Of a DNA stretch of 64,000 nt, positions 7,191 to 61,400 are shown piece after piece. Source of the stretch: Crambe crambe (lineage: Eukaryota; Porifera; Demospongiae; Poecilosclerida; Crambeidae); assembly GCA_963924555.1 (NCBI GenBank), contig OZ004591.1, positions 5,022,001-5,086,000 on the forward strand, read 5' to 3'. A program made the position numbers and the translations under genes. Numbering within the stretch: the first letter of the stretch is position 1; each line of letters starts with the position of its first letter. The notes under the pieces were generated by a model. That model was not told the origin of the DNA and did not search any database. It worked only from the letters and a program-made list of their open reading frames with translations.

Positions 7191-7199
7191 AAATAGGAT

Positions 7200-23844: not shown

Positions 23845-24119
23845 TCAATGATTTCTGGCTATTTTTTCAAATAGTTCATGATTGAGACTCTGCACTGCCC
23901 CTGCTAACCTCTGCCAGCTTGATCTTCCATATTTTTGGTGATTGTAGTTCAACTTCAACCACTCTTTAAGTGCTCCACACAGTCTCCTCTTGCTATCACT
24001 GCAATTTTTCTGGATATCTTCAACTGTATGATTTCTCAGATGCAGTTTGATTGCTAGCAAGTCCCAATCTGGTGACAAGTCCTCCACTTCATTAAATACC
24101 TCCCCAATGTCATCAATAC
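23845..24119 (-). CDS. Death domain exon of the middle gene
   Basis: The exon reads LSPDWDLLAIKLHLRNHTVE, then DIQKNCSDSK, LKEWLKLNY and SWQRLAGAVQSL. This matches the Death fold pattern of Trp-x-x-Leu-Ala, a Leu-Ile helix, Leu-x-x-Trp-Leu, and Trp-x-x-Leu. The stop TGA follows ARNH; the right gene has GGA there and runs 17 residues further. Confidence 0.85.
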
Positions 24120-27100
24120 CTTGGAAAGAAAGAACATAGCTAGTAACTAATGACCTCCTAACACTGAAATATAATATTATTATTGTATACAATTATATAG
24201 CCAAACTTACCAAGGTCTGTATCATCTATCATTGCCAGTATGTCCTGATCTGTTAAGACAAAAAGAAGAAAAGTGATCAAGCTATCTACTCAGTGACAGT
24301 TGGTAGTCACCACTAATAATACTCACAAGTCTTTCCTGGAGAGGGAACTTGTGGGCTTGTGCTGGCTCCAACCTACAAAGAGCAAATAATTTATTTAGGT
24401 GTGATAATTATCATTAGGTCTTTAATTAACTTACATTAGTTGCTGATGCTGCTGGGGAAGTCCCTGTTTCATTTGCAGATGATGACGATGATTGCACTGG
24501 AATAGGCACTGCATAGTGATACATTCATTCTCGTGATACTATAGCAGATAGTGGTGAATCAGCTATATACCTTGAAACGACAAAAAAAGCACAAAAATAT
24601 TTCTTGGCTCCTTTGCCCCAAGAAGCTTGATAGGATGAGTCAAATGAGGACCAGCATTCTCAGAGAGTCTATACACACAGAGGTTGCAGTATGACAGCTG
24701 CCTGTTCTCCTGAAATGCATCCACACTGTCCTTTTGAATCTAAAACAAAAAAAAAAAAACATTTTGAGTTGATTACAATGAAAGAGGATGCTGAGAATGG
24801 ATGTAACAAAGAACTTACCACTGGAACAGTTAAAGGTTGTATTCTCCAGTAATCCTCCACAGTCAAACCAGAAATAGGAACGTCAAGTTCAATTTCATTT
24901 TCTAGGAAGGTGATCTCCTGATGGACTATTTTCTGTACAGTCTCCTTGGAAAAATTTTGTGACAATTTCTGCAACCATGCAGTGTATCAGACTCATCAAA
25001 TGTGTGGAGATAAGTACTGACTACATACAGTTAATATAGTGAGTTACCTTTGCATGCAGTTCAGAATCCAGAATGATGGTGAATATTACGTCCCATTCTT
25101 TGCCAGCATCCTTTTGAATATTGAGTAGATATGCTCGGTAGAGATTCTTCTCTTTCCTCTTTCTCACAATAGCATACTTGCAGAAATGCTTAAGCTCGAT
25201 GGCTCCAAATTGAGAATGAGCTGCAAATACTCCTTTCTCACGCAAGTCAAACTTATAGGGCAGCTTGTCTCCAGTGCTGATGGCAAAACTGAGCTCTTCA
25301 GTATCTTCTTGAGAATCAACAGCAGAGTAGTGTTGTATCTCCATAGTTACTGGCTTAGTGAATGAGTGATGACAGTGAATAGAGTAGACTCCACTGACCA
25401 ATTCAGTAGTGCTGGAAAATTTAAACTGACCACGAAGAGCTGCATTAATTTGAATAGGACACTCAGTAATATCAGGAGGTAAAGCATTCTCTGGTAAGTG
25501 AAGCTTGAAGCCATGGTTTTTCCAAGTAAAGCTTATATCTTCTCCTCTGTAAATGAAGGATGTGGTTCCAACTATATCGATTTCACGTTTGTAGTCTGTT
25601 ATGCACAATAAGTATGTTATCTAGCTATCTGCATTGATAATGAGACCCACCTTTCACTGAAGTATCCATAGAAACTGCTGTCAAGCTGGGAAGTGTGGTC
25701 ATAGCAGCTTGCTGAGACCCTATATCATTAGGATATTGAGTGAAGTTAGGTCTTTAGTTATCATAAGACTGAACACTTTTATGTGCACACACTAGTCTAG
25801 CTAGCTATTTACATCACTCACAGGAAGGAGATGGAACTTGAAGATCACTGCTGGCTCCAATCTATAGTGTGTGTGAAGGTACTACTAGGTGAATGTAGTG
25901 TGGGGTCCCCAATCTTAGCAACTCACATTAGCAGCTGATGCTATTGGGGAAATCCCTGATTCATTGCCATGTGATGAAGGGGGTTGCATCAGGGCTGAGA
26001 AAGAAGAAGAAGAAGAGTAAAAGTTTTTAGCTACTCAACAATTGCTACCATTGTTATGTTAACTGTATGATAATACTCACAAGTCTTTCCTGGAGAGGAA
26101 ACTTGTGGACTAGTGCTGGCTCTCACCTACGTACAAGGATTACAATGTTATCAGTTTATGTGAATTAAGTGTGGCATTAACTTACATTGGTTGCCGAAGC
26201 TGCTGGGGAAATCACTGATTCATTTGCAGATGATGATGGAAAATGCACTGGAGGAGACAGTTATCACAATAGTTATAGCTAGGTAGTGGTGAATCAGATA
26301 AGATTTTACCATGAGATGAAATGCACAACACAACGTAATTGTAAGGTTCTTTAGCACCAAGAAGGTCAATGCTATATGTCAGATCAGATCCAGTGGATGC
26401 CACACCTCTGTATCGTACTTTCAACTTGCAATGTGAAAACTGCTTATGAAGTCGATAAGTGTCAACTTGAGACTTGAGAATCTGAAAAGTACATTATGGT
26501 AGTGAATCTACTGTAGTAACTGAATGCACTTACAATGGGTGCTGCCAGTGGCTGAATTTTCCAACCTCCTTCCAAATTGAGGCCTTCTTTGGGAATATTC
26601 AACTCTATCTTGTTCTTTTTGAAGGCAACAGGTTGCTCAATCACTCTGTTTACGGGGTATTCCTCCAGAAGATTCTACGATGAAAAATTATTATGATAAT
26701 ATACTTATAGCCCGTTGCCATGGTAACGGGCCGGTTTACATGGATTTATAAATGTGATACAGTGCATGTAATTGTACCCTGGGGTGGTGTTTACAGGGAA
26801 AAGTTAGATATAGATTCTGCAAAGTTGATATTGTACTTTTAAGGAGTTGTGACTAGACTGAAAGGTGAGTATGTGACAGTATAGAGTTCTGTCCTTATAC
26901 TAACTACTCTCAGAAAAGAATTTTAATATTATTCATTGAACACGGTGCACACGCTATAATGATATTCATTGACCACATTCCCCATTTCAAACCCAACAAG
27001 CTTTTCAGAGAGTAGCCAGCATAAAAGGCAGAACTTGCGAGCTGTGTAACAGCGTGGCTGGTATTCTGCACTAGCTGCCCTACTTGCCATTCAGCGTCCA

Positions 27101-30100
27101 ACCATAATTATGATGCTGTGCCCCTACCTTACGTGGGCAACACAGTGAGTGGGTGGGTTATAGAGTGAAAGATAGTTCGGTACCATACGAATCACGACGT
27201 TGAAGTGGGATGGCCATATTCTTGTAAGCAGCCAAAAGTAGCTACATCGCTATAGAGACAGAAGCACTGAGCATGCGTAGTACACTCGCGCGGGCTATAA
27301 AATAGTTATTAACCGCGCGCGTGCGGTTTGTAGTGAATTATAAGCACTCGCCCCTCGGGCTTCGCCCTCGGGCCTCGTGCTTATAATTCGACTACAAACC
27401 TAGCGCTTGGTTAATAACTATTACATACGTAATTAAAGTAATAGCTAACTCACTTTATAGTGGATTTCTGTGTCTGGAGTAATACTGAACATGACTTCCC
27501 AATCATAGCTCTGATTTGCCTCATTGAATAGAAGGTAGCCTTTGTATATTGCAGACCGTTTTGACTTTCTTCTCCTTGTGACACCATACTCGCAAAAATG
27601 TGGTACTTCAATGGCCCCATATCGACTGTGAATGGGGAAGATCCCATTCTTAAGTGGGTGGAATTGAGAGGGGAGTTGGTCTCCAGTGTTGACGACAAAG
27701 GATAGCTCTTCAGCTTCTTCGAGGGTGTCAGTGGTACTGAAGTGCTCAATTTCCACAGTCACTGACCGAGTGAAGGAGTGAGAGCTGTGAATGGAGTAGA
27801 TTCCACTCACCAGCTCAGCATCATCAGGAAATTGGAACTGGCCAGAGAGAGCTGCACTGACTCGAATAGAACATTCTGTGACATCAGAAGGCAAGGCATT
27901 TTCAGGTAAGTGGAGTTTGAAGCCATGGTCCTTCCAAGTGAAGCTAACAGCTTTTCCACAGTAGAGGAAGGAGGTTGATCCCATCACATCCATACCTCGA
28001 AGGTAATCTGTTGTTTACAGAAGACACAATTGAATCTTAGACACTTTATAGCTATGATGGAGATTACACACCATTCACTGAAGTATCTGTAAGGAAAACA
28101 CTCCGAGTCATTGCACCAAACGAAGCATCTGTAATAATACAAAGTACATATACTTAAAGGTATACAACTCAAAACTCATGGAACTGATCCATTTTACATT
28201 TATTATAGTAGCTGAATAAGAATTATATAGATGTAACTGCTTACCAGGTGGTGATAATTTTAAAACAAAGAAGTCATGAGGCTTCTTTGCACCAAGAAGG
28301 TCAATGTGATGATTTAATGGAGACCCAACATCTTTAGGACTTTTATAAACATTCAGCTTACAAAAAGATAACTGTTTACCAGTGTTCATTCCATCAACAT
28401 CATTTTTCATGATCTAAAAAAAGAAAATTCAAAATCATTTAAACACAGAGAATAGACTTACTACTGGAGCTGTCAAAGGTTGAATGGTCCACATATTAAC
28501 AGCCACATCATTAACTGGGATGTTCAGTGTGATCTCACTTTGTGTGAAAGTGACTTGCTGATCAATTGCATCATGAAGACTCTCTCTTGGAAACTTCTCA
28601 AAGAGTATCTGAAGATAAAAATATTCATGTTTACATATACCTATACTCACATTTACTATTATGGTTACCTTGGAATACAGTTCTGCCTGTTGAATGATAG
28701 AGTATATTACAATCCAATTGCTGTCACTTTCCTTTACATACAAAACATGTGCTCGATACAAGTTATGAGAAATAGTGCTACTCTGAAAGAGAGAAAATCG
28801 ACCTTTCTTCTTTCTTCTCACAATTGCAAACTTGCCGAAGCTTTTAATCTCAATGGCCCCATACTGACTGCCAACAGAGAACGTGCAATCTTCATAATAA
28901 GTGAATTGACAGGGAAGTTGATCTCTGCTACTGAAGACAAAGCAAAGCTCATCAATTTCTTTCTGAGTATCGGAAGAAGAGAAGTGTTGAATTTCAAATG
29001 TTGCTGTCTTGGTGAGCTGCTTGGGGCTGTGGATGCAATACACACCACTCACCAGCTCAGCACCATCAGGAAACTGGAACTGGCCAGATATTGCTGCCTC
29101 CAGATGAATAGGACATTCAGTGATGTTGGAGGTAAAGGCGCCCCTTGGAAGGTGGAGCTTGAAGCCATGGCCATTCCAGGTAAAGCTGAGAGCTTTTCCT
29201 TTGTAAATTAAAGAAGTTGATCCAATAACATCTATTCCTCGCTGGTAACCTGTATAAATAATACATCATCATGTAAATGATCTTGAGTGACTGAATAGAT
29301 TAATTATATACAAAGTAGAAAAATCCAATAATAATAATGTTTACATGCACTCTTCATTCTTCACATCTAAAATAAAATTACATGCCATCTTCTCTTTCTT
29401 AGCCATTCTTCAGCAAACAGTTAACAATAGTTTAGTGAGGCCAGCAGAACAGAATACCATTTTTTCCCTTAGCTACGTAATTAGATGTCACATGTACTAT
29501 TAATTTCTTATCATTGGCAACCCTTACCCAATAATGCTTGCAAATATGAGCTGACGAAGCTATCTATGCTGCCTTCTTGCTCTTCTCTATAGGCTTTAGT
29601 TGACACTTCTAGTTGAAAACCCCTTGCACAGCATGGTTCTACAACGTCATTTTTCTACGTACTTGATATTTTTACATAAAGTAATATTTAAAAAAAATGA
29701 ATAAAAAATTAAGATTGGGTCAAAGCAGATGATGTGGTTCCACTTATTCAGCGAGTGAGTTTTCTCTATGCAACTTACATAGATCACATTGTGAAATTTC
29801 AATATTAGCAACCGCTTACCCAATATACATAAAACTAGGGTATGTTTGTATAACACATTCAATTGGCGAGCGAAGCAGTTGGTGAAAGTCATTGTACTTT
29901 TAGTCTAGCAATCATCAGTGCCTGCATGTGCATGATACCCTGGGGATACAGATGCACTCTAAAAAAAGCATCAGGTAAGACATGTAGCAGCTAGCTAACC
30001 CTAATGGCTATAAAAAGCTTAAGTAACATGCACATGCACTAGAGTAGTAGCTACTATAAAAGCTAGTTATAAGTTAAAAACACTCCAGCTCAAGCTATAT

Positions 30101-33100
30101 CATAGAGAGAGCTCACCTGTAGATGAGTATGTGGGATGGTTGACAAACATACAATAGTGAGCGTGTGCATGTGCACATTATATAGGCTGCAGATCTTGCC
30201 TTCTTTCAGGAATAAAGCTCAATTTAAACACTGAGGAGGTATCATCTAGACATCTGACATTGAAGCATTCTAATCAGTACTGAATGTGTGGTTGATGCAA
30301 CACACTTGCACATACAGATACACCAACTGAGTACTGTAACTCTTGAGCATGTGTTGAGGGTTAATCAACTACACTTCTTGAGTTTAGTTTCTTCTACAAG
30401 GTTATTTCCTACTTGGTATGCAATTGCCCTTGGAAAAAAAAAACTTACTATTCATTGAAGTCTCTATACTTCTAGTCTGAGATGCAACATCACTACACTG
30501 GTCTGACAAAGTTTGAGATGCGACATCACTGCACTGGTCTGAAAAATTCTGTGATGCATCATCATTGCACTGATCTAAAGTGATGAAATACACATGTGAT
30601 GATTCAAAACTATAACAACAACAACAACAACAAACTACCAAACTACAGAACATACCTGTCCATATCAGCTGTTTCTCATTATCTGCATCCATGGAACATG
30701 TGGTCAGTTTATGCATACACAGTTTGCGCAAGTGTTGCAGCTTTGTATGTTCCATTTGCCTGTTCCCCTTGACACTATCGAGAGTCATCCCCCCTTCTGG
30801 ACATGTCAGTATTCTTTCCACTTCATTAATTGCAAACATGTTATCTTCACTTAAGTAATCAGCTTCATCAGTAGAATCAAGGAGAAAGAATTCCAGTTTG
30901 ATGGAATGGCAAAACTCTGCCTTGACTTCCATCACACAACTGATAACTTTTTGAAAGGTACTGATGCAATCTTTCACCCTATCTTCTTTACTTTCAGTGA
31001 TGACAACCACTCCTTTGTTCTCATGCACCATCTCCACCATACACTCTACCTCTTCCTCCATACTCCAATGTACCCCTGTCTTCCACATTGCGCAGTTACG
31101 GTTGAAGAGTGCTTGTTCAGGAGAAGTCTCGAGACCTGGGAACTGTGTCTGTTTTGAAACATCAGAGAGTGTGAATCTGTGGACTGCTCTGATGAGGAGA
31201 ACATGAAGGAAACGTGGGGGGAAGTAGTCATAAGAGTCAGTGCACTGTGCTAACCAACCAATGCTGTAATTCAAGTCAGGGGATTTGTTAATGGATGCAC
31301 TGTCTTTACTTGCACAGCATAGAGCAGGAAAAAATAGAAATGATCGTTCAGTAGAACCAGATGGTAAGAGGTGAGGGAAAATCCCTATTTCATTGTAGTT
31401 GATTTCTTGACAGTACTGAAGTTGAATGAGACATTCCTTTGTGATGTAAGGAGGAAGGATCTCTTCCAGAATACTCCCAGGGATTATTCCTATATTGAGA
31501 GGACAGATTCGTGACTCACATTTACACTTCTCCTTCAGCTCAATAAGTGATTTTTTAGAAAAAAACTTTTCATGGACTTTACGTGTCAGTTGAGAAATAT
31601 TCAGAATGATGTGATTATCATTGTGAGGTTTGCCACCTATCAATAACAAGTACCCAATCTCATTCAGTTGCTGGAGAATTGGATGCAACAATTCAACTGT
31701 TTTAGGTAGGAGTATGCCAGTGTCTTCTATGTGGGATAGAATTGTCTGGACTGAACAGGCAGTGACATTACTGAAATCTTTCTCTAACAAGCCCAGCAGC
31801 ACACTTGCTTGGACTGAGAGTTCAAAGGGTGAAGATTGTTGAGATATAGCTATGAACTCTTTCTGAATGTTACTAATTTCCTTTGAGCCAGGTTGGCAGC
31901 AGTCCAACACTGCACTGCTCACCTTGATATTTGATCGAATATCTCGAGAGAAATCTTCTAAGAGTTTGCCTTTTCTTACTGTTCCTTCCTTAGTGATTAG
32001 GTCTGAATGACTTCCTATCACCACGAGGAAAGGCTGACTTGAAACAAACCTTTGATGTTGTATAAATGAATACCAATACTTTACAGAACTCTGGATGGTC
32101 GAGTTATCTTTCCTCAAGTCTGCTATGATGATGAAAACATTGCTACCACTTCTACACATAGCAAAACTCTCAAGGACAGCTGCATGTGAGGAGTAATACT
32201 CAGGATCACCAGCAAAGTCATAAAAGAAAACTTTTCCATAGTGCTTACTGGTGTGGATACTGGGAATAATACCAGCAGTATGGGGGGGCACTGAAGATTC
32301 AGACACTTTCCATAAAAATTGGAAGTATCCTTCCCTCTTCAATGATTCAATGAGAGAACTTTTTCCAGCACCTGGGTCACCTATTACGAATATTCGCATG
32401 ATGCACTGAGAGCCAGAATACCTTTTCTTTGCAAGTTCTTGAATCATATTATCAATTTTTAGCTTGTGCTGATTTGTTTGTAAATAATTGTGAAGGAATA
32501 CCTTATTTCCAGAGGAAGCAACATCAATCGGTGTTTTTCCAAATCTATTTCTTATTAAAATAGGTGCATTAGCTTGAAGGAGGACGTCAACACAATTACC
32601 ACTGCCTAACATTGCACATATATGAAGAGGAGTGTTGCCATCTTCATCGACAACTAACAAATACTCACTGTTAAGAATTAGACTCTGTACTAGACTGATA
32701 TTACCACCTTCACATGCATTATGGAGCACTGATCGACCAACTTGCCCTCTAACTTTAGCATCACAACCAAACTCAGTAATTAAAGCCAATGCTACTTCCT
32801 CTTTTCCAAAAAGAGCTGCTACATTGAGTGGTGTGTTATTTTGATCATCTCGATCATTGACATCGGCACTGTGCTTTTGGATCAGAGTCCGAACTAGACT
32901 GATATTACCACCTTGGCATGCATTATGGAGCACTGATCGACCAAATTCCCCTCTGACTTTAGCATCACAACTGAACTCAATGATCAAGGCCAATGCAACT
33001 TCTTCATTACCTGAAGCAGCTGCTAATATTAGTGGTGTGTTATTTTGATCATCTCGATCATTCACATCAGCATTGTGCTTTTGGATCAGTGTCTGAACTA

Positions 33101-36100
33101 GACTGATATTACCACCTTCACATGCATTGTGGAGCACTGATCGATTAAATCGCCCTCTGACTTTAGCATCACAACCAAACTCAGTGATCAAAGCCAATGC
33201 TACTTCCTCGATCCCACATAAAGCTGCTAAATTGAGTGGTGTGTCATTTTGATCATCTCGATCATTGACATCAGCATTGTGCTTTTGAATCAGAGTCCGA
33301 ACTAGACTGATATTACCACCTTGGCATGCATTATGGAGCACTGATCGACCGAATTGCCCTCTGACTTTAGCATCACAACCAAACTCAGTGATCAAAGCCA
33401 ATGCTACTTCCTCGATCCCACATAAAGCTGCTAAATTGAGTGGTGTGTTATTTTGATCATCTCGATCATTGACATCAGCATTGTGCTTTTGGATCAGAGT
33501 CCGAACTAGACTGATATTACCACCTTGGCATGCATTAAGAAGCACTGATCGACCAAGTTGCCCTCTGACTTTAGCATCCCAACCAAACTCAGTGATCAAA
33601 GCCAATGCTACTTCCTCTTCCCCACAAAAAGCTGCTACATTGAGTGGTGTGTCATTTTGAACATCTCGATCATTGATATCGGCATTGTGTTTTTGGATCA
33701 GAGTCCGAACTAGACTGATATTACCACTTTCACATGCATGATGTAGCACTGATCGACCAAATTGCCCTTTGACTTTAGCATCACAACCAAACTCAGTGAT
33801 CAAAGCCAATGCTACTTCCTCTATTCCGCTATAAGCTGCTACATTGAGTGGTGTGTTACTTTTATCGTCTCGATCATTGACATCGGCATTGTGCTTTTGG
33901 ATCAGAGTCCGAACTAGACTGATATTACCACCTTTGCATGCATTATGGAGCACTGATCGACCGAATCGCCCTCTGATTTTAGCATCACAACCAAACTCAG
34001 TGATCAAAGCCAATGCTACTTCCTCTTTCCCACATAAAGCTGCTAAATTGAGTGGTGTGTCATTTTGATCATCTCGATCATTGACATTGGCATTGTGCTT
34101 TTGGATCAGAATCCGAACTAGACTGATTTTACCACATTGGCATGCATTATGGAGCACTGATCGACCAAATTGCCCTCTGACTTTAGCATCACAACCAAAC
34201 TCAGTGATCAAAGCCAATGCTATTTCCTCTTTCCCACATAAAGCTGCTAAATTGAGTGGTGTGTCATTTTGATCATCTCGATCATTGACATCAGCATTGT
34301 GCTTTTGGATCAGAGTCCGAACTAGACTGATATTACCACCTTGGCATGCATTAAGAAGCACTGAACGACCAAGTTGCCCTCTGACTTTAGCATCACAACC
34401 AAACTCAATGATCAAAGCCAATGCTACTTCCTCTTCCCCACATAAAGCTGCTACATTGAGTGGTGTGTCATTTTGATCATCTCGATCATTGATATCGGCA
34501 TTGTGCTTTTGGATCAGAGTCCGAACTAGACTGATATTACCACTTTCACATGCATGATGTAGCACTGATCGACCAAATTGCCCTTTGACTTTAGCATCAC
34601 AACCAAACTCAGTGATCAAAGCCAATGCTACTTCCTCTATTCCGCTATAAGCTGCTACATTGAGTGGTGTGTTACTTTTATCGTCTCGATCATTGACATC
34701 GGCATTGTGCTTTTGGATCAGAGTCCGAACTAGACTGATATTACCACCTTTGCATGCATTATGGAGCACTGATCGACCGAATCGCCCTCTGATTTTAGCA
34801 TCACAACCAAACTCGGTGATCAAAGCCAATGCTACTTCCTCTTTCCCACATAAAGCTGCTAAATGGAGTGGTGTGTCATTTTGATCATCTCGATCATTGA
34901 CATTGGCATTGTGCTTTTGGATCAGAGTCCGAACTAGACTGATATTACAACCTTTGCATGCATTATGGAGCACTGATCGACCGAATCGCCCTCCGATTTT
35001 AGCATCACAACCAAACTCAGTGATCAAAGCCAATGCTACTTCCTCTTTCCCACATAAAGCTGCTAAATTGAGTGGTGTGTCATTTTGATCATCTCGATCA
35101 TAGACATTGGCATTGTGCTTTTGGATCAGAGTCCGAACTAGACTGATTTTACCACATTGGCATGCATTATGGAGCACTGATCGACCAAATTGCCCTCTGA
35201 CTTTAGCATCACAACCTAACTCAGTGATCAAAGCCAATGCTACTTCCTCTTTCCCACATAAAGCTGCTAAATTGAGTGGTGTGTCATTTTGATCATCTCG
35301 ATCATTGACATTGGCATTGTGCTCTTGTATCAGAGTCCGAACTAGACTGATATTACAACCTTTGCATGCATTATGGAGTACTGATCGACCTAATCGCCCT
35401 CTGACTTTAGCATCACAACCAAACTCAGTGATCAAAGCCAATGCCACTTCTTCATTCCCACTAAGAGCTGCTAATATTAGTGGTGTGTTATTTTGATCAT
35501 CTCGATCATTGACATCGGCTTTGTGCTTTTGGATCAGAGTCCGAACTAGACTGATATTACAACCTTGGCATGCATTATGGAGCACTGATCGACCTAATCG
35601 CCCTCTGACTTTAGCATCACAACCAAACTCAGTGATCAAAGCCAATGCTACTTCTTCATTCCCACTAAGAGCTGCTAATATTAGTGGTGTGTCATTTTGA
35701 TCATCTCGATCATTGACATTGGCATTGTGCTCTTGTATCAGAGTCCGAACTAGACTGATATTACAACCTTTGCATGCATTATGGAGTACTGATCGACCTG
35801 ATCGCCCTCTGACTTTAGCATCACAACCAAACTCAGTGATCAAAGCCAATGCCACTTCTTCATTCCCACTAAGAGCTGCTAATATTAGTGGTGTGTTATT
35901 TTGATCATCTCGATCATTGACATCGGCATTGTGCTTTTGGATCAGAGTCCGAACTAGACTGATATTACCACCTTGGCATGCATTATGGAGCACTGATCGA
36001 CCAAATCGCCCTCTGACTTTAGCATCACAACCAAACTCAGTGATCAAAGCCAATGCTACTTCTTCATTCCCACTAAGAGCTGCTAATATTAGTGGTGTGT

Positions 36101-37733
36101 TATTTTGATCATCTCGTTCATTGACATCGGCATTGTGCTTTTGGATCAGAGTCCGAACTAGACTGATATTACCACCTTGGCATGCATTATGGAGCACTGA
36201 TCGACCAAATCGCCCTCTGACTTTAGCATCACAACCAAACTCAGTGATCAAAGCCAATGCTACTTCTTCATTCCCACTAAGAGCTGCTAATATTAGTGGT
36301 GTGTTATTTTGATCATCTCGTTCATTGACATCGGCATTGTGCTTTTGGATCAGAGTCCGAACTAGACTGATATTACCACCTTGGCATGCATTATGGAGGA
36401 CTGATCGACCAAATCGCCCTCTGGCTTTAGCATCACAACCAAACTCAGTGATCAAAGCCAATGCTACTTCTTCATTCCCACTAAGAGCTGCTAATATTAG
36501 TGGTGTGTTATGTTGATCATCTCGATCATTGACATCGGCTTTGTGCTTTTGGATCAGAGTCCGAACTAGACTGATATTACAACCTTGGCATGCATTATGG
36601 AGCACTGATCGACCTAATCGCCCTCTGACTTTAGCATCACAACCAAACTCAGTGATCAAAGCCAATGCTACTTCTTCATTCCCACTAAGAGCTGCTAATA
36701 TTAGTGGTGTGTTATTTTGATCATCTCGATCATTGACATCGGCTTTGTGCTTTTGGATCAGAGTCCGAACTAGACTGATATTACAACCTTGGCATGCATT
36801 ATGGAGCACTGATCGACCAAATCGCCCTCTGACTTTAGCATCACAACCAAACTCAGTGATCAAAGCCAATGCTACTTCTTCATTCCCACTAAGAGCTGCT
36901 AATATTAGTGGTGTGTTATTTTGATCATCTCGATCATTGACATCGGCTTTGTGCTTTTGGATCAGAGTCCGAACTAGACTGATATTACCACCTTGGCATG
37001 CATTATGGAGCACTGATCGACCAAATCGCCCTCTAATTTTAGCATCACAATCAAACTCAGTGATCAAGGCCAATGCCACTTCTTCATTACCTAAAGCAGC
37101 TGCTAATATTAGTGGTGTGTTATTTAGATCATCTCGATCATTGACATCAGCATCGTGCTTTTGGATCAGAGTCCGAACTAGACTGATATTACCACCTTGG
37201 CATGCATTATGGAGCACTGATCGACCAAATTGCCCTCTGACTTTAGCATCACAACCAAACTCAGTGATCAAAGCCAATGCTATTTCCTCATAGCCGCTAT
37301 AAGCTGCTACATTGAGTGGTGTATCGTTGATATCATCCCTGACATATATGTCATATTTATGCTCTTTAATAAGTGATCGAATCAAGCTCGAATTTCCCTT
37401 TCTGCATGCATGATGAAGTAAGTTCTCACATTCTAAACCCATTACCTCAGTCTTCATCATTCCCACCACATGGTCATGTTTGTATTCAACAGCAAGCATT
37501 ACTGGTGTGTCTTTACTTCTGTCTTTGACATTAACATTAGCTCTATACTCCGTTATTAGCATCCTAACCGTAACTAGGTGCCCATTAGCACAGGCATAAT
37601 GCAATGGTGTCCTCCCTTCTGAATCAGTACAGTTTACCTCGTACTCTCTACGGTCCAGTAGTTCCCTGGCCTCCTTCACTTTACCACACCGACAAGCATC
37701 ATGTAAGGGACTTGGAATCGTTGAGGTAGCCAT
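23845..37733 (-). CDS. ANK-Roc-COR-3x(ZU5-UPA-like)-Death protein, complete family copy 2, 21 exons
   Basis: Exons read from the minus strand: 37733-30656, 30574-30449, 29249-28669, 28608-28462, 28413-28245, 28128-28072, 28007-27454, 26674-26534, 26481-26310, 26247-26186, 26126-26081, 25994-25927, 25861-25822, 25719-25651, 25595-25048, 24968-24819, 24739-24571, 24508-24435, 24372-24327, 24249-24211, 24119-23845. Every junction is GT-AG with matching phase; the sum is 10,611 nt, or 3,536 residues plus stop. Parts in order: about 50 ANK repeats (1-1760), Roc (about 1779-1935), COR (about 1950-2290), linker (2360-2401), ZU5 modules starting near 2402, 2720 and 3104, and Death (about 3446-3536). 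ANK plus Roc-COR plus Death recalls DAPK1; ANK-ZU5-UPA-Death recalls ankyrins. No transmembrane segment or signal peptide is seen, so a cytoplasmic signalling scaffold is inferred. Transcript support is not available here. Confidence 0.8.
24211..25595 (-). CDS. ZU5-UPA-like module 3 of the middle gene (six exons)
   Basis: Exon 25595-25048 codes FTWKNHGFKLHLPENALPPD and the rest of a ZU5-type domain ending LHAK. Exons of 150 and 169 nt code ENEIELDVPISGL, WRIQPLTVPV and LLGAKEPRNIFVL. Linker exons of 74 and 46 nt again carry SANETGTSPAASATN and TSPQVPSPGKT. The 39-nt connector codes QDILAMIDDTDL and leads in phase 1 to the Death exon. Confidence 0.7.
25651..28007 (-). CDS. ZU5-UPA-like module 2 of the middle gene (eight exons)
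   Basis: Exon 28007-27454 codes FTWKDHGFKLHLPENALPSD and the rest of a ZU5-type domain. Exons of 141 and 172 nt code the UPA-like part (ELNIPKEGL, WKIQPLAAP, DLLGAKEPYNYVVL). Four small exons (62, 46, 68 and 40 nt) code Ser/Pro/Ala-rich linkers, such as SANESVISPAASATN and TSPQVSSPGKT, in two similar pairs. A 69-nt connector ends MDTSVK, like the one after module 1. Confidence 0.7.
26712..27427. mobile_element. about 715-bp insertion in an intron of the middle gene, absent from the right copy
   Basis: The flanks gataatatac (left) and taattaaag (right) are contiguous in the right gene (54846-54865) but about 715 bp apart here. The insert contains a strong hairpin at its right end (27302-27421). 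No coding region is seen. The exact ends and target duplication are unclear (possibly ATAC). Confidence 0.65.
27302..27421. repeat. hairpin with GCACTCG / CTCGTGC tip
   Basis: The arm beginning atagttattaacc at 27302-27346 pairs with the arm ending ggttaataactat at 27377-27421. The tip reads gcactcgcccctcgggcttc followed by gccctcgggcctcgtgc. Confidence 0.75.
28072..29249 (-). CDS. ZU5-UPA-like module 1 of the middle gene (four exons)
   Basis: Exon 29249-28669 codes a ZU5-type domain: FTWNGHGFKLHLPRGAF, CPIHLEAAISGQFQFPDGAE and SFGKFAIV. Exons 28608-28462 and 28413-28245 code the 105 residues that follow (TFTQSEITLNIP, WTIQPLTAPV, LLGAKKPHDFFVLKL), which I call UPA-like only from position. 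The 57-nt exon 28128-28072 is a phase 1-1 connector ending DTSVN. Module exon sizes are 581, 147, 169 and 57 nt. Confidence 0.7.
29250..30448. other. intron between linker exon and ZU5 module 1
   Basis: The same intron in the right gene (56661-58164) is similar over most of its length, including catgtgcacattatataggc (30166-30190) and the matching 57906-57930. On the minus strand this reads CCTATATAATG, which resembles a TATA box. No exon was found inside. Confidence 0.35.
30449..30574 (-). CDS. linker exon of the middle gene (Asp/Gln/Ser repeats)
   Basis: The acceptor TTTAG precedes ATCAGTGC and the donor is AATA|GTAAG. The exon codes three copies of an 11-12-residue repeat (SDQCSDVASQTL-like) before SIETSMN. 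The right gene's matching exon is 63 nt longer. Both copies of the intron before it carry an AAC microsatellite (about 30613-30632 here). Confidence 0.75.
30656..37733 (-). CDS. exon 1 of the middle gene: ANK array, Roc GTPase, COR
   Basis: One exon of 7,078 nt. After about 50 ANK repeats the Roc domain shows a P-loop GDPGAGKS (1785-1792), a switch-2 DFAG (1839-1842) and a base-contact motif SHSD (1908-1911) in place of the common (N/T)KxD. COR follows with ILLPKTVELLHPILQQLNEI and FLLDSTDEADYL. The exon ends NEKQLIWT plus one base, at donor ACAG|GTATG (30656/30655). The Roc motifs look functional for nucleotide binding, with the altered G4 motif as the caveat. Confidence 0.85.
32650..37320 (-). 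repeat. 204-bp tandem array coding ANK doublets (middle array)
   Basis: About 22 units of 204 bp, all in frame. The blocks starting at 33844 and 34660 are near copies of each other, giving an 816-bp (four-unit) higher-order repeat. Units between about 35490 and 37110 are the most alike. Confidence 0.9.
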
Positions 37734-47224: not shown

Positions 47225-47679
47225 TAGCCTCGCGCCAGGCTCTCAGGAAGGGGGAGGGCTAGGGGGAAGGAAAAGAGAGCCTGGTTGCCACTGTCTGCGC
47301 ATGCGCTGATTTTTTAAGCCGCGAATCACCACGCGCGTGCTATGTTAGTCATAAAACGTCATTTAAACGTGGTTTCGACCACGAGGGTTTGTCGTTTGTA
47401 GTGAACAGCAATAGAAGTGTCCTCATCTTGGGTAACACTACTGTAATGAAGAAGCAGTGGGTGACAATCCTTGTTTCGAGGGCGAAAAGGACAACTGAGC
47501 AGAATACTAGTAGTAGTAGACAATATACTTTGACCTATGACGTTTAGTGTTGCGGACATATACAGGCAAGTATCCGGATTCCGCAAAATCGCGGAAAAAT
47601 CAGCGCATGCGCAGACAGTGGCAACCAGGCTCTCTTTTCCTTCCCCCTCCCCCTTCCTGAGAGCCTGGCGCGAGGCTAG
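47225..47679 (-). mobile_element. MITE copy A, about 455 bp
   Basis: It begins TAGCCTCGCGCCAGGCTCTC and ends with the exact inverse; the inverted ends run for about 80 bp into gcgcatgcgctg. An open frame of 75 codons (47586 down to 47359, with SVTQDEDTSIAVHYKRQTL) is shared with copy B. No clear target duplication was found. Confidence 0.8.
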
Positions 47680-51929: not shown

Positions 51930-52261
51930 TCAAAGGAAATAGGATAAAAATCTGTTAATTCCCATAAGAAGCTGCACAATCTCACCTCCATGATTCCTGG
52001 CTATCTCCTCAAAGAATCCATGGTCAAAACTCCGTACTGCCTCTGCTAACCTCCGCCAGCTTGGTCTTCCATATTTTTGGTGATTGTAGTTCAACTTCAA
52101 CCACTCCGTCAATGCTTCAATTAAGCTATTCTTGCTATCACTGCAATTTTTCTTAATGTCTTCAATTTTACAATTTTTCAGATGCAGTTTGATTGCTAGC
52201 AAGTTCCAATTTGGTGACAAGTCCTCCACTTCATTAAATACATCTTCAAAATCATCAATAC
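51930..52261 (-). CDS. Death domain exon of the right gene
   Basis: It follows acceptor TTTTCAAG and reads LSPNWNLLAIKLHLKNCKIE, then DIKKNCSDSK, LTEWLKLNY, SWRRLAEAVRSF and IARNHGGEIVQLL. The differences from the middle copy cluster in the central helices (RRLCGALK against NSLIEALT). Confidence 0.85.
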
Positions 52262-55200
52262 CTTGAAAAGAAAGGAAGAACTCAGTAACAACAACTCAAT
52301 AATGACAAGTTACACCAAGATATTTGTGTATAGCTAGCAAATCAAACTCACCAAGGATTGTATCGTCTACTTTTGCAAGTATGTTAAGCAGGTAGAAAGA
52401 AGAAAAAAGTGATCAAAAGGGCTCTAGCAAGTTCACTAACATTGTACTTACAAGTCTTTCCTGGAGAGGGAACTTGTGAACCAACCTACAATGAGCAAGA
52501 ATATTTCTGAATTAGGTGTGATAATTATCGTAGGTCTATAATTAACTTACATTAGTTGCTGATGCTGCTGGGGAAGTCCCTGGTTCATTTCCAGAATGTA
52601 ATGATGATTGCATTGGAGGAGGCACTGCATAGTGATACATTATTCATTCTCATGATACCATAGCTATGTATAATTATTGGTGAATCAGCTAGACTTCACA
52701 TACCTTGAAACGATAAAAAAAGCACAAAAATATTTTTTGGCTCCTTTGCCCCAAGAAGCTTGATAGGATGAGTTAAATGAGGACCAGCATTCTCAGAGAG
52801 TCTATACACACAGAGATTGCAGTATGACAGCTGCCTCTTCTTCTGAAATGCATCCACACTGTCCTTTTGAATCTAAAAATCAAAAACATTTGAGTTGATT
52901 ACAATGAAAGAGGATACTGAGAATGGATGTAACAAAGAACTTACCACTGGAACAGTTAAAGGTTGTATTCTCCAGTTATCCTCCACAGTCAAACCAGAAA
53001 TAGGAACGTCAAGTTCAATTTCATTTTCTAGGAAGGTAATTTCCTGATGGATTGTTCTCTGTACAGTCTCCTTGGGAAATTTTTGTGACAATTCCTGCAA
53101 CCGTGCAGTGTGGAGATAAGTACTGACTACATACAGTAAATATAGCGAATTACCTTTGCATGCAGTTCAGAATCCTGAATAATGGTGAATATTACGTCCC
53201 ATTCTTTGCCAGCATCCTTTTGAATATTGAGTAGATATGCTCGGTAGAGATTCTTCTCTTTCCTCTTTCTCACAATAGCATACTTGCAGAAATGCTTAAG
53301 CTCGATGGCTCCAGATTGAGAATGAGCTGCAAATACTCCTTTCTCACACAAGTCAAACTTATAGGGCAGCTTGTCTCCAGTGCTGATGGCAAAACTGAGC
53401 TCTTCAGTATCTTCTTGAGAATCAACAGCAGAGTAGTGTTGTATCTCCATAGTTACTGGCTTAGTGAATGAGTGATGACAGTGAATAGAGTAGACTCCAC
53501 TGACCAATTCAGTAGTGCTGGAAAATTTAAACTGACCACAAAGAGCTGCATTAATTTGAATAGGACACTCAGTAATATCAGGAGGTAAAGCATTCTCTGG
53601 TAAGTGAAGCTTGAAGCCATGGTTTTTCCAAGTAAAGCTTATATCTTCTCCTCTGTAAATGAAGGATGTGGTTCCAACTATATTGACTCCACGTTTGTAG
53701 TCTGTTATGCACAATAAGTATGTTATCTAGCTATCTGCATTGATAATGAGACCCACCTTTCACTGAAGTATCCATAGAAACTGCTGTCAAGCTGGGAAGT
53801 GTGGTCATAGCAGCTTGCTGAGACCCTATATCATTAGGATATTGAGTGAAGTTAGGTCTTTAGTTATCATAAGACTGAACACTTGGGAATGAGGTATAGT
53901 TGCAATAGTAAATGTAGTTATGTGCACACACTAGTCTAGCTAGCTATTTACATTACTCACAGGAAGGAGATGGAACTTGAAGATCACTGCTGGCTCCAAT
54001 CTATAGTGTGTGTGAAGGTACTACTAGGTGAATGTAGTGTGGGGTCCCCAATCTTAGCAACTCACATTAGCAGCTGATGCTATTGGGGAAATCCCTGATT
54101 CATTGCCATGTGATGAAGGGGGTTGCATCAGGGCTGAGAAAGAAGAAGAAGAAGAGTAAATGTTTTTAGCTACTCAACAATTGCTACCATTGTTATGTTA
54201 ACTGTATGATAATACTCACAAGTCTTTCCTGGAGAGGAAACTTGTGGACTAGTGCTGGCTCTCACCTACAAGGATTACAATGTTATCAGTTTATGTGAAT
54301 TAAGTGTGACATCATAAGGTCTTTAATTAACTTACATTGGTTGCCGAAGCTGCTGGGGAAATCACTGATTCATTTGCAGATGATGATGGAAAATGCACTG
54401 GAGGAGACAGTTATCACAATAGTTATAGCTAGGTAGTGGTGAATCAGATAAGACTTTACCATGAGATGAAATGCACAACACAACGTAATTGTAAGGTTTT
54501 TTAGCACCAAGAAGGTCAATGCTATATGTCAGATCAGATCCAGTGGATGCCACACCTCTGTATCGTACTTTCAACTTGCAATGTGAAAACTGCTTATGAA
54601 GTTGATAAGTGTCAACTTGAGACTTGAGAATCTGAAAAGTACATTATGGTAGTGAATCTACTGTAGTAACTGAATGCACTTACAATGGGTGCTGCCAGTG
54701 GCTGAATTTTCCAACCTCCTTCCAAATTGAGGCCTTCTTTGGGAATATTCAACTCTATCTTGTTCTTTTTGAAGGCAACAGGTTGCTCAATCACTCTGTT
54801 TACGGGGTATTCCTCCAGAAGATTCTACGATGAAAAATTATTATGATAATATACATAATTAAAGTTATAGCTAACTCACTTTAGAGTGGATTTCTGTGTC
54901 TGGAGTAATACTGAACATGACTTCCCAATCATAGCTCTGATTTGCCTCATTGAATAGAAGGTAGCCTTTGTATATTGCAGACCGTTTTGACTTTCTTCTC
55001 CTTATGACACCATACTTGCAAAAATGTGGTACTTCAATGGCCCCATATCGACTGTGAATGGGGAAGATCCCATTCTTAAGTGGGTGGAATTGAGAGGGCA
55101 GTTGGTCTCCAGTGTTGACGACAAAGGATAGCTCTTCAGCTTCTTCGAGGGTGTCAGTGGTACTGAAGTGCTCAATTTCCACAGTCACTGACCGAGTGAA

Positions 55201-58200
55201 GGAGTGAGAGCTGTGAATGGAGTAGATTCCACTCACCAGCTCAGCATCATCAGGAAATTGGAACTGGCCAGAGAGAGCTGCACTGACTCGAACAGAACAT
55301 TCTGTGACATCAGAAGGTAAGGCATTCTCGGGTAAGTGGAATTTGAAGCCATGGTCCTTCCAAGTGAAGCTGACAGCTTTTCCACAGTAGAGGAAGGAGG
55401 TTGATCCCATCACATCCATACTTCGAAGGTAATCTGTTGTTTACAGAAGACACAATTGAATGTTAGACACTTTACAGCTATGATGGAGAATACACACCAT
55501 TCACTGAAGTATCTGTAAGGAAAGTACTCTGAGTCATTGCACCAACCGAAGCATCTGTAATGATACAAAGTACATATGCTTAAAGGTATACAACTCAAAA
55601 CTCATGGAACTGATCCATTTTACATTTATTATAGCTAGTAGCTGAATAAGAATTTCATAGATGTAACTGCTTACCAGGTGGTGATAATTTTAAAACAAAG
55701 AAGTCATGAGGCTTCTTTGCACCAAGAAGGTCAATGTGATGATTTAATGGAGACCCAACATCTTTAGGACTTTTATAAACATTCAGCTTACAAAAAGATA
55801 ACTGTTTACCAGTGTTCATTCCATCAACATCATTTTTCATGATCTAAAAAAAGAAAATTCAAAATCATTTAAACACAGAGAATAGACTTACTACTGGAGC
55901 TGTCAAAGGTTGAATGGTCCACATATTAACAGCCACACCATTAATTGGGATGTTTAGTGTGATCTCACTTTGTGTGAAAGTGACTTGCTGATCAATTGCA
56001 TCATGAAGACTCTCTCTTGGAAACATCTCAAAGAGTATCTGAAGATAATAATGCTCATGTTTATACCTATACTCCCATTTGCAATGGTTACCTTGGAATA
56101 TAATTCTGCCTGTTGAATGATAGAGTATATTACAATCCAATTGCTGTCACTTTCCTTCACGTACAAAATATGTGCTCGATACAAGTTATGAGAAGTAGTG
56201 TGAAAGCGAGAGGAAAATTGACCTTTCTTCTTTCTTTTCACAATTGCAAACTTGCCGAAGCTTTTAGTCTCAATGGCCCCATACTGACTACCAACAGAGA
56301 ACATGCAATCTTCATGATAAGTGAATTGACAGGGAAATTGATCTCTGCTACTGAAAACAAAGCAAAGCTCATCAATTTCTTTCTGAGTATCGGAAGAAGA
56401 GAAGTGTTGAATTTCAAATGTCACTGTCTTGGTGAACTCCTTGGGGCTGTGGATGCAATACACACCACTCACCACCTCAGCACCATCAGGAAACTGGAAC
56501 TGGCCAGATATTGCAGCCTCCAGATGAATAGGACATTCAGAGGTAAAGGCGCCCCTTGGAAGGTGGACCTTGAAGCCATGGTCATTCCAGGTAAAGCTGT
56601 CAGCTTTTCCTTTGTAAATCAAAGAAGTTGATCCAATAACATCTATTCCTCGCTGGTAACCTGTATATGTAATTGATCTTGAGTGACTGAATAGACATAC
56701 AAAGTAGAAAAATCCAATAATGTTTCTGGTCTTACATGCACTCTATAACTTATCTCAGTACTCATACACAAAGAGCCAAAATTAAATTACATGCCATCTT
56801 CCTTTTCTTAGCCATTGCTCAGCAAATAGTTTAGTGAGGCCAGTGGAACAGAATACTATTTTCCCCCCTAGCTACGTAATTGGATGTCACATGTACTATT
56901 AATTTCTTACTATTGGCCGATTGTGCTTGCAAATAAAGTTATGTATGCTATCTTCTTGCTCTTCTCTATAGGCTTTAGTTGGCACTTCTAGTTGGAAACT
57001 CCTTGCACGGCATGGTTCTACAGTGTCATTTTTCTACTTGATATTTTTACATACATTTAAAAGTGAATAAAAGAATTAAGATTGGATCAGAGCAGATGAT
57101 GTGGTTCCACTTATTCAGTGAGCGAGTTTTCTCTATGCAACTTACATAGATCAACATTGTGAAATTTCGATATTAGCAATCACTTACCCAATATACATAA
57201 AACTAGGGTACGTATGTTTGTGTAACATATTCAATTGGCAGTTGTACTTTAACTTCTTAAGCTAATTAAGGTATTGCTGTCAGTATGAACAGCTGCATGC
57301 ATACACAGGAGGTTGTATAATGCTTACCACAAGCAAGAAAGCTAAGCACCTACAATCCGCTTAGAAAGCTAAGCACCTACAATCCACTTAGAAAGCTAAG
57401 CACCTACAATCCACTTAGGGGATCAAAGGTCAAGCAAACGTATGTGCACTCAATTTGCATGAATAGGGGGCAAGCTTGCTTCCCTCGCCAATTATGATTC
57501 TTAATAAAACTATTAAAATATGAAAAGCACTAAAGCACTAACCCCCAGTGCACACGTAAGGCACAATGTCTGCTGTTATACAGAGCTATCAAGAGTGCAT
57601 ACAATGCAAAGGTTAGCATTTATAGTACTAGTCCAGCAATCATCAGTGCTTGCATGTGCATGATACCTTGGAGATGGCCTAATGATTGTGCAGATGCACT
57701 CTAAAAAAAGCATGCAGGTAAGACAAGTAGCAGCTAGCTAACCCTAATGGCTGTAAAAAGCTTAAGTAACATGCACATGATAGATACATGCACTAGAGTA
57801 GTGGCTACTATAAAGCTATAAGTTAAAAACACTCCAGCTCAAGCTACACCACAAGAGAGCTCACCTGTAGATGAGTATGTGGATAGTTGACAAACAGTGA
57901 GCGTGCACATGTGCGCATTATATAGGCTGCAAATCTTGCCTTCTTTCAAGAATAAAGCTCAATTTAAACACTGAGGAGTATCATCTAGACATCTGACATT
58001 GAAGCACTCTAATCAGTACTGAATGTAACACACACACACATACAGATACACCAACTGAGTACTGTAACTCTTGAGCATGTGCTGAGGGTTAATCAACTAC
58101 ATTTCTTGAGTTTAGTTCAATCTACAAGGTTATTTCCTACTTGGCCCTTGGAAGAAAAACTTACTATTCATTGAAGTCTCTATACTGCTAGTCTGAGATG

Positions 58201-58385
58201 CAACATCACTACACTGGTCTGAAAAAGTTCGAGATGCGACATCACTCCACTGGTCTGAAAAAGTTCGAGATGCAGCATCACTACACTGGTCTTGAGATGC
58301 GACATCACTCCACTGGTCTGAAAAAATCTGTGATGCATCATCACTGCACTGATCTAAAATAATGAAATACACTTGTGATGATTCA

Positions 58386-58425
<40 letters not shown>

Positions 58426-61400
58426 AACAACAAACTACAGAACATACCTGTCCATATCAGCTGTTTCTCATTTCCACCCTTATCTGCATGTATGGAGTAT
58501 GAACGACCAAATTGCCCTCTGACTCTTGTATCATAACCAAACTCAGTGATTAAAGCCAATGTTACTTCCTTTTGCCCATGAAAAGCTGCTACATTGAGTG
58601 GTGTGTCATTACGACCATCTCGATCATTGACATCGGCATTGTGCTTTTGGATCAGAGTCCGAACTAGACTGATATTACCACCTTGGCATGCATTATGGAG
58701 CACTGATCGACCAAATCGCCCTCTGACTTTAGCATCACAACCAAACTCAGTGATCAAAGCCAATGCTACTTCCTCTTTCCCATAAAAAGCTGCCACATTG
58801 AGTGGTGTGTTATTTTGATCATCTCGATCATTGACATCGGCATTGTGCTTTTGGATCAGAGTCTGGACTAGACTGATATTACCACCTTGGCATGCATTAT
58901 GGAGCACTGATCGACCAATTTGCCCTCTGACTTTAGCATCACAACCAAACTCAGTGATCAAAACCAATGCTACTTTTTCATTACCTAAAGCAGCTGCTAA
59001 TATTAGTGGTGTGTTATTTTGATCATCTCGATCATTGACATCAGCATTGTGCTTTTGGATCAGGGTCCGAACTAGACTGAGATTACCACCTTGGCATGCA
59101 TTATGGAGCACTGATCGACCAAATCGCCCTCTGACATTAGCATCACAACCAAACTCAGTGATCAAAGCCAATGATACTTCTTCTTTCCCACAAAAAGCTG
59201 CTATATTGAGTGGTGTGTCATTTTGATCATCTAGATCATTGACATCGGCATTATGCTTTTGGATCAGAGTCCGAATTAGACTGATATTACCACCTTGGCA
59301 TGCATTATGGAGCACTGATCGACCAAATCGCCCTCTAACTTTAGGATCACAACCAAACTCAGTGATCAAAGCCAATGCTACTTCCTCTTTCCCACAAAAA
59401 GCTGCTACATTGAGTGGTGTGTTATTTTGATCATCTCGATCATTGACATCGGCATTGTGCTTTTGGATCAGAGTCTGGACTAGACTGATATTACCACCTT
59501 GGCATGCATTATGGAGCACTGATCGACCAATTTGCCCTCTGACTTTAGCATCACAACCAAACTCAGTGATCAAAGCCAATGCCACTTCATTACCTGAAGC
59601 AGCTGCTAATATTAGTGGTGTGTTATTTTGATCATCTCGATCATTGACATCAGCATTGTGTTTTTGGATCAGAGTCTGAACTAGACCGATATTACCACCT
59701 TGGCATGCATGATGGAGCACTGATCGACCAAATTGCCCTCTGACTTTAGCATCACAACCAAACTCAGTGATCAAAGCCAATGCTATTTCCTCTTTCCCAC
59801 AAAAAGCTGCTACATTGAGTGGTGTGTCATTTTGATCATCTCGATCATTGACATTGGCATTGTGCTTTTGGATAAAAGTCCGAACTAGACTGATATTACC
59901 ACCAGAGCATGCATTATGGAGCACTGATCGACCTAATCGCCCTTTGACTTTAGCATCACAACCAAACTCAGTGATCAAAGCCAATGCTACTTCCTCTTTC
60001 CCACAAAAAGCTGCTACATTGAGTGGTGTGTCATTTTGATCATCTCGATCATTGACATCAGCATTGTGCTTTTGGATAAAAGTCCGAACTAGACTGATAT
60101 TACCACCAGAGCATGCATTATGGAGCACTGATCGACCTAATCGCCCTTTGACTTTAGCATCACAACCAAACTCAGTGATCAAAGCCAATGCTACTTCCTC
60201 TTTCCCACAAAAAGCTGCTACATTGAGTGGTGTGTTATTTTGATCATCTCGATCATTGACATCGGCATTGTGCTTTTGGATCAGAGTCTGGACTAGACTG
60301 ATATTACCACCTTGGCATGCATTATGGAGCACTGATCGACCAATTTGCCCTCTGACTTTAGCATCACAACCAAACTCAGTGATCAAAGCCAATGCCACTT
60401 CATTACCTGAAGCAGCTGCTAATATTAATGGTGTGTTATTTTGATCATCTCGATCATTGACATCAGCATTGTGTTTTTGGATCAGAGTCTGAACTAGACC
60501 GATATTACCACCTTGGCATGCATGATGGAGCACTGATCGACCAAATTGCCCTCTGACTTTAGCATCACAACCAAACTCAGTGATCAAAGCCAATGCTATT
60601 TCCTCTTTCCCACAAAAAGCTGCTACATTGAGTGGTGTGTCATTTTGATCATCTCGATCATTGACATCGGCATTGTGCTTTTGGATAAAAGTCCGAACTA
60701 GACTGATATTACCACCAGAGCATGCATTATGGAGCACTGATCGACCTAATCGCCCTTTGACTTTAGCATCACAACCAAACTCAGTGATCAAAGCCAATGC
60801 TACTTCCTCTTTCCCACAAAAAGCTGCTACATTGAGTGGTGTGTCATTTTGATCATCTCGATCATTGACATCAGCATTGTGCTTTTGGATAAAAGTCCGA
60901 ACTAGACTGATATTACCACCAGAGCATGCATTATGGAGCACTGATCGACCTAATCGCCCTTTGACTTTAGCATCACAACCAAACTCAGTGATCAAAGCCA
61001 ATGCTACTTCCTCTTTCCCATAAAAAGCTGCCACATTGAGTGGTGTGTTATTTTGATCATCTCGATCATTGACATAGGCATTGTGCTTTTGGATCAGAGT
61101 CTGGACTAGACTGATATTACCACCTTGGCATGCATTATGGAGCACTGATCGACCAATTTGCCCTCTGACTTTAGCATCACAACCAAACTCAGTGATCAAA
61201 GCCAATGCCACTTCTTCATTACCTGAAGCAGCTGCTAATATTAGTGGTGTGTTATTTTGATCATCTCGATCATTGACATCACCTTTGTGCTTTTGGATCA
61301 GGGTCCGAACTAGACTGAGATTACCACCTTGGCATGCATTATGGAGCACTGATCGACCAAATCGCCCTCTGACTTCAGCATGACAACCAAACTCAGTGAT

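Follow-up and report, generated by a model that had tools for sequence, protein, structure and literature searches.

In ankyrins, ankyrin repeats precede two ZU5 domains, a UPA domain and a Death domain (ZU5-ZU5-UPA-DD), and in DAPK1 ankyrin repeats stand between the kinase and the Roc domain. The kinase, Roc, COR and Death parts of DAPK1 are found in that order (PMC6337361). PIDD1 is organized as LRR-ZU5-ZU5-UPA-Death (PMC3210808, PMC11637483) and is cut at S446 and S588 to give PIDD-C and PIDD-CC (PMC11637483). NLRP1 and CARD8 contain a FIIND, in which a ZU5-UPA unit with a cleavage site precedes a death-fold domain, and NLRP1 is an NTPase-bearing sensor (PMC3210808, PMC8081665). Here, we describe a predicted gene of the sponge Crambe crambe in a window of 64,000 nucleotides (contig OZ004591.1, positions 5,022,001 to 5,086,000). 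One open reading of this gene holds an ankyrin array, a Roc domain, a COR-like region, three ZU5 modules and a C-terminal Death domain.

The gene shares features with each of these systems. As in ankyrins, ankyrin repeats, ZU5 and Death follow in order, and ankyrins have the closest ZU5 fold. Unlike in ankyrins, Roc and the COR-like region lie between, the ankyrin repeats include many near-identical double repeats in one exon, and there are three full modules. A paralogue in the same window that has no Roc-COR is closer to the ankyrin order. Like DAPK1, the gene has ankyrin repeats, Roc, a COR-like region and Death in order, and it has a Death domain and no LRR (its repeats are ankyrin), as does the DAPK1 group of ROCO proteins; it differs in that no kinase was found in 16 of the 19 upstream frames and that three ZU5 modules are added. 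PIDD1 resembles it in having a repeat sensor, more than one ZU5, a C-terminal Death domain and a motif at the presumed HF/S position. Unlike PIDD1, the gene has ankyrin repeats in place of an LRR sensor, Roc and the COR-like region are added, and there are three modules, each with a UPA-position half and with HFC or SFG rather than HFS. It shares with NLRP1 and CARD8 the arrangement around the presumed cleavage site, but has Roc rather than NOD, Death rather than CARD, Cys rather than Ser, and no His at the FIIND spacing.

Each of these domains is known, and domain shuffling of this kind is known in marine invertebrates, which have NACHT-Zu5 and NACHT-Ank genes (PMC12909245) and TRADD-N proteins with UPA-Zu5 or FIIND (PMC8195603). 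Sponges have lineage-specific ZU5 expansions with a suggested defence role (PMC3482391). ROCO proteins with repeats that vary on the contact face are found in brown algae, where they are read as candidate immune receptors; these are LRR-ROC-COR proteins whose exons are shuffled and alternatively spliced, and the accessible part of that paper mentions no ZU5 or Death (PMC11378527). We found no publication naming ankyrin repeats, Roc-COR, ZU5 and Death together, in a search that had most subscription papers outside its reach. In the accessible text of the papers concerned, the overlap between Roco and ZU5 was a mention of Roco in a reference list, and the overlap between ZU5 and DAPK1 was judged unrelated.

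Domain composition of the predicted protein

A preliminary description of the locus had read one frame of 3,536 residues over 21 exons with consistent splice phases, and our rebuilding of the gene by hand on the minus strand (37733..23845; 10,611 nt) gave the same numbers. The joined frame has no internal stops, and GT-AG borders are present at 20 of 20 introns. The donors of 18 of these introns score at least 7 of 9 against the consensus (mean 7.25), whereas the 856 GTs of the locus, the donors of the model itself included, reach this score in 4.2% of cases (mean 4.3). Exon 1 has 7,078 bases and lies inside a 2,448-codon open frame. We took the ATG at 37733 as the probable start because the gene (copy A) and a related copy (copy B) are alike by eye over only a short stretch upstream of the first ATG, and because Pfam found no domain in those 16 of 19 upstream open frames (at least 45 codons), a search in which short exons could be missed.

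Profile searches had been proposed for each domain, and matches above the Pfam cut-off were obtained for ankyrin repeats, Roc, Death and the ZU5 of module 3, but not for COR or UPA (Table 1). Roc scored about 30.6-30.7 bits (cut-off 27), so the Roc domain that is expected of a ROCO protein is present. In a search of solved structures (PDB), LRRK2 Roc came first (E 0.005), ahead of Rab-type GTPases. The Death domain scored about 23.3-24.0 bits in copy A and 23.8 in paralogue C (cut-off 22.6), and module 3 reached the ZU5 cut-off of 21.0 with 0.1 bit to spare; the margins for these two domains are narrow, from 0.1 to 1.4 bits. Module 2 is below the cut-off. In paralogue C, Death and the module-3 ZU5 also pass, and modules 1 and 2 are below. 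NCBIfam gave weak matches only, all below cut-off, and no confirmed relative of the ZU5 modules or of Roc-COR was found in the viral and genome contig collections searched.

The three ZU5-type modules are homologous to each other. Their pairwise amino-acid identity is 48-50%, the proportions of synonymous and nonsynonymous differences (pS and pN) are 0.69-0.78 and 0.30-0.32, and codon positions 1, 2 and 3 are identical in about 61%, 73-76% and 42-46% of cases, which indicates strong coding constraint. We predicted the structure of the module-3 ZU5 exon with AlphaFold from an alignment of six exons (mean predicted local distance difference test score, pLDDT, 59.6; predicted template-modelling score, pTM, 0.57). 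With this model, the top two Foldseek matches were the ankyrin ZU5 structures 4d8o and 3ud2, both with probability 1.00 (E 2.6e-3 and 1.5e-2; root-mean-square deviation 9.5 and 6.8; template-modelling score by query 0.47 and 0.46). The third match had probability 0.30, and none was under E 0.001.

The COR-like region was recognized by its similarity to LRRK2 COR. Local alignment gave a score of 63 versus a shuffle mean of 37.8, and 18 other segments of the same protein scored 23-41. With 2,000 shuffles, the local p was 0.0015 at a gap penalty of -10, and 0 of 2,000 shuffles reached the score at -8; with 1,000 shuffles, p was 0.002 in a semiglobal and 0.007 in a local test.

Several results weigh against these assignments. 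Pfam COR-A and COR-B gave no match in the COR-like region, and the same profiles score LRRK2 COR itself at 63.8 and 58.8 bits. At a gap penalty of -11 the support for COR fell to z 2.5 (p 0.0285), one of two negative controls gave p 0.036 in the semiglobal test (one of its two tests), and the predicted Roc-COR structure was poor (pLDDT 32). For the modules, Pfam gave no ZU5 match in module 1 of copy A, a profile of the six modules matched no ZU5 chain in PDB, hhalign to UNC5 gave a probability of 0.2-0.3% and a score that is not significant, and 1 of 18 shuffle tests of modules against UNC5B reached p <0.05. No UPA was found by Pfam or by the PDB profile. Compared with UNC5B, the UPA-position parts were mostly no better than shuffles; the best p was 0.02 (module 1, semiglobal), and that in the local test was 0.59.

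The combination that the preliminary description had put forward therefore stands for ankyrin repeats, Roc, ZU5 and Death. Its COR is moderately supported, by similarity to LRRK2 COR, which beats most shuffles in a region that the Pfam profiles miss. Of its three ZU5-UPA-like modules, the three homologous cassettes hold and the ZU5 half has outside support; the UPA half we infer from order and length. We consider a ROCO-type switch probable.

Continuity of the gene and its paralogues

The longest intron of the gene, of 1.2 kb (30448-29250), separates the ankyrin-ROCO part from the ZU5-Death part. There could be two transcription units here: one for an ankyrin-ROCO protein, with its end after exon 1 or exon 2, and one for a ZU5-Death protein that begins within this intron, as exons 1 and 2 also form a single open frame up to a stop at 30402. 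However, exon 2 resembles exons 6 and 14, linker exons that end in ETSMN, DTSVN and DTSVK, of the type (I/E/D/M)-T-S-(M/V)-(N/K), all in phase 1. Two exons with a phase-0 start come after each ZU5 exon, and the second of them ends in phase 1 (exons 2-5, 6-9 and 14-17). The join across the 1.2-kb intron is thus one of three homologous joins by its shared linker ending and phase, and paralogue C holds the join in frame beside its own missing stretch. The intron has no AATAAA or ATTAAA on the coding strand, which is a weak point against two units because the 846 bases that begin at the Death stop have none either. We conclude that the locus very probably is one continuous gene, as first described, and that a division into two units is improbable.

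Paralogue C lies about 28 kb upstream of the gene, and its 5' end is beyond the window. The ankyrin array, the exon-1 tail and exons 2-19 all have counterparts in C, and AG and GT are found at homologous places. Paralogue C is without about 2 kb corresponding roughly to 30680-32676 of copy A, which is Roc-COR, and its ankyrin repeats run in frame into the exon-1 tail. As the exon-1 tail, which comes after COR in A, is still present in C, the comparison favours loss of Roc-COR in C over gain in A. Exons 5-15 of A and C are 93-100% identical and appear partly homogenised. The tract at 25779-26704 is 97.5% identical to 53918-54854, with flanks at 87-91%, which suggests recent gene conversion. About 720 bases in intron 7 of A (26704-27425) are not in C; this insertion has palindromic ends by eye.

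It is also conceivable, though improbable, that the gene is decaying within a tandem family, or arose as an artefact of the assembly, and that there is no product of this form. Decayed relatives are present in the window: copy B (5301-3, minus strand), of which the window holds the ankyrin array only, has its frame broken somewhere from about 4505 to 4384. A piece of the COR region at 14070-13074 (minus strand) matches copy A at 91% and then at 79% identity, with the frame broken near 13629, and resembles a fragment of a pseudogene. A faint COR relic lies just downstream of the gene (23180-22978, minus strand; two short tblastn matches, E 0.003-0.004). Exon 20 of C maps uncleanly, as the acceptor used in A is changed (the frame would be preserved by another AG 21 bases further along). 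The TGA stop of the Death exon in A is GGA in C, adding 19 residues. The ratio of nonsynonymous to synonymous rates (dN/dS) between A and C over exons 2-18 is 0.75 from few changes (25 synonymous, 68 other), a weak measure because the copies are partly homogenised. Because of its repeats, the ankyrin array may have been assembled at a wrong length. In contrast, copy A is free of stops over 3,536 codons, and the Death exon has a dN/dS of 0.37 (dS 0.38, dN 0.14). The lengths of A and C differ by 9 (exon-1 tail), 63 (exon 2), 12 (exon 3) and 12 (exon 19) bases, all multiples of three, whereas among introns with A bases unmatched in C this was so in 1 of 9.

The presumed self-cleavage site and ankyrin variation

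CARD8 and NLRP1 cut themselves between F and S, in a loop that leads into a long strand, and in PIDD the cut is at HF/S (PMC3210808, PMC8081665). At what is presumably the corresponding loop, judged by spacing and by the secondary structure of the model, modules 2 and 3 have HFC and module 1 has SFG, in both copies A and C. In the structural model, HFC lies in the loop between strands 131-134 and 139-145, directly ahead of the latter. The cleavage in CARD8 is at F296/S297, and F296 has been equated with L677 and H252 with H624 of UNC5B (PMC3210808); the UNC5B numbering agrees with the letters of 3g5b at three residues. In the hhalign register, the His of EIQH corresponds to UNC5B H624 (register only, as the score is not significant), and this His and the Phe are 49 residues apart in this gene, compared with 53 in UNC5B and 44 in CARD8. 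We also considered the HFS or HYS in the middle of the ZU5 (EIQHFS) as a PIDD-type site and rejected it, as its His is the equivalent of UNC5B H624 and the cleavage position lies about 49 residues on. In both copies, modules 2 and 3 have a second His, twelve residues N-terminal to the Cys, and module 1 lacks both His residues and the Cys. This joint absence is suggestive rather than strong, because 35 of 281 ungapped columns show the same split, with modules 2 and 3 alike and module 1 different, and because the pattern was seen post hoc. A Cys at the site has a parallel in the ZU5/GPS/Nup98 superfamily, for which a 2012 survey gives a C-terminal thiol autopeptidase motif, written CxH (PMC3482391).

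Three observations speak against cleavage. The catalytic His of CARD8 and NLRP1 lies 27 residues before the Ser (PMC3210808, PMC8081665), and there is no His at such spacing here. The animal ZU5-UPA cleavages in the cited papers (PIDD, CARD8 and NLRP1) use Ser in the parts of those papers available, and here there is Cys. UNC5B has Leu-Gly at the corresponding site in 3g5b, and a ZU5 therefore need not cut. The gene may then be as described with ZU5 domains that never cut but form a scaffold or a closed supramodule, as those of ankyrins or UNC5 do, with Death freed by a change of shape or serving as a docking site. The absence of the motif from module 1 fits this alternative, as do the ankyrin ZU5 structures at the top of the Foldseek list, the first of which, 4d8o, is entitled ankyrin-B ZU5-ZU5-UPA-DD. 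It does not account for HFC, which both paralogues have in modules 2 and 3 (4 of 4) together with the second His at -12, whereas module 1 has none of these two His and the Cys; the four are not independent cases, because A and C are partly homogenised, and the motif too was noticed post hoc. A non-cutting protein is a serious, if minority, possibility, and self-cleavage of modules 2 and 3 at HF/C is a tentative proposal, putative at both sites.

The array of copy A has 23 units of 204 bases. Each unit holds two repeats by comparison with what we take to be the ankyrin consensus, and 23 double units with the flanking repeats would make about 50 ankyrin repeats. We read 64 units (23 in A, 18 in B and 23 in C, with a unit pattern that overlooks some units of B and C), and none of the 64 contains a stop codon. 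As the presumed contact set we took 14 codons per unit, at what we believe are the positions used in DARPin design. Relative to the commonest codon, 227 differences in this set are replacements and 28 are silent; in the remaining 54 codons the numbers are 277 and 160 (Fisher p 4e-14; codon permutation p 0.0004; copy A alone, Fisher p 3e-6). Variation thus appears to concentrate at the presumed contacts, with p-values that overstate the evidence because the units are related to each other and have variants in common. Codon 19, which varies more than any other, is outside the contact set and presumably buried by the same consensus, which speaks against a pure contact-surface reading.

Features of the window and the proposed mechanism

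Table 1. Predicted features of the gene and of paralogue C, with positions in the window.
Feature	Position	Strand	Basis
Exon 1: ankyrin array, Roc, COR-like region (aa 1-2359)	30656..37733	-	2,448-codon frame and model
Ankyrin repeats, including 23 tandem 68-residue units	32502..37733	-	Unit counts, Pfam Ank_2 890 bits
Roc GTPase domain: P-loop GDPGAGKSS, DFAGDPEYY, SHSD	32001..32396	-	Pfam Roc; LRRK2 Roc best structure match
COR-like region (aa 1970-2286)	30876..31826	-	Local alignment to LRRK2 COR
Exon 2: module-1 linker, ends ...SIETSMN	30449..30574	-	Model; ending and phase as exons 6 and 14
Exon 3: module-1 ZU5, SFG codons 28842-28834	28669..29249	-	Alignment of ZU5 exons
Exons 4-5 (28608-28462, 28413-28245): module-1 UPA-position part, UPA putative	28245..28608	-	Model and alignment
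Exon 6: module-2 linker	28072..28128	-	Gene model
Exon 7: module-2 ZU5, HFC codons 27600-27592	27454..28007	-	Pfam ZU5 14.4 bits (below 21) and alignment
Exons 8-9 (26674-26534, 26481-26310): module-2 UPA-position part	26310..26674	-	Model and alignment
Exons 10-14: Ser/Pro-rich linker, modules 2 to 3; exon 14 ends ...MDTSVK	25651..26247	-	Model
Exon 15: module-3 ZU5, HFC codons 25188-25180	25048..25595	-	Pfam ZU5 21.1 bits, AlphaFold and Foldseek
Exons 16-17 (24968-24819, 24739-24571): module-3 UPA-position part	24571..24968	-	Model and alignment
Exons 18-20: linker ahead of Death domain	24211..24508	-	Gene model
Exon 21: Death domain and stop	23845..24119	-	Pfam Death 24.0 bits, cut-off 22.6
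Paralogue C: ankyrin array in frame with exon-1 tail, module exons, Death, no Roc-COR	51930..64000	-	

Elsewhere in the window, a Pao-type retrotransposon with a 1,796-codon open frame (7287-12677, plus strand) matches Peptidase_A17, DUF1759, DUF5641 and Integrase_H2C2 over the Pfam cut-off and rve below it. It is preceded by a minisatellite-like array at 5743-7192 that is open in several frames. An inverted repeat of 455 bases, 97% identical (47225-47679 versus 49134-48686), perhaps forms the ends of a DNA transposon. A 395-codon open frame (44337-43153, minus strand) is transposase-like by eye and has no Pfam match at E 0.01. A scan with Rfam and a tRNA scan with the bacterial code found nothing.

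We propose that the gene encodes a GTPase-gated, PIDD-like death-signalling sensor, perhaps self-cleaving. This is a prediction in which expression, too, is inferred from sequence, and as a whole we give it slightly less than an even chance; an output in death or immune signalling is the part towards which we lean. The ankyrin solenoid would bind a trigger, Roc-COR would act as a GTP-dependent switch or dimeriser, and the ZU5-UPA modules would keep the Death domain in an inactive state. Self-cleavage may take place in modules 2 and 3 between the Phe and Cys of HFC and would leave UPA-Death pieces of 679 and 295 residues at the C terminus, in the way that PIDD gives PIDD-C and PIDD-CC; module 1, with SFG and no nucleophile, would not cut. 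A change upstream would then free the UPA-Death piece, which could nucleate a death-fold assembly of Death domains. Paralogue C, having no Roc, would correspond to this receptor minus the GTPase step. Beyond the preliminary description, the difference between HFC and SFG, the Roc-less paralogue and the ankyrin variation at presumed contacts are new.

The most far-reaching version is unlikely to hold in every part: a tandem family, in an early-branching animal, of GTPase-gated self-cleaving death receptors, with thiol autoproteolysis at HF/C in two of three ZU5 modules, a homogenising ankyrin array whose contact positions diversify unit by unit, and a Roc-less version beside it. If the proposed reading is true, a ROCO GTPase and ZU5-UPA release of a Death domain, known separately, would be joined in one chain, and if expressed as predicted, the protein would be an unusually complete death-signalling sensor. 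If HF/C is cut, this would be an animal ZU5 module working with a cysteine. The ankyrin array would exemplify a recognition surface diversifying within a homogenising tandem repeat, and the Roc-containing and Roc-less paralogues at one locus would offer a natural comparison for the contribution of the GTPase.

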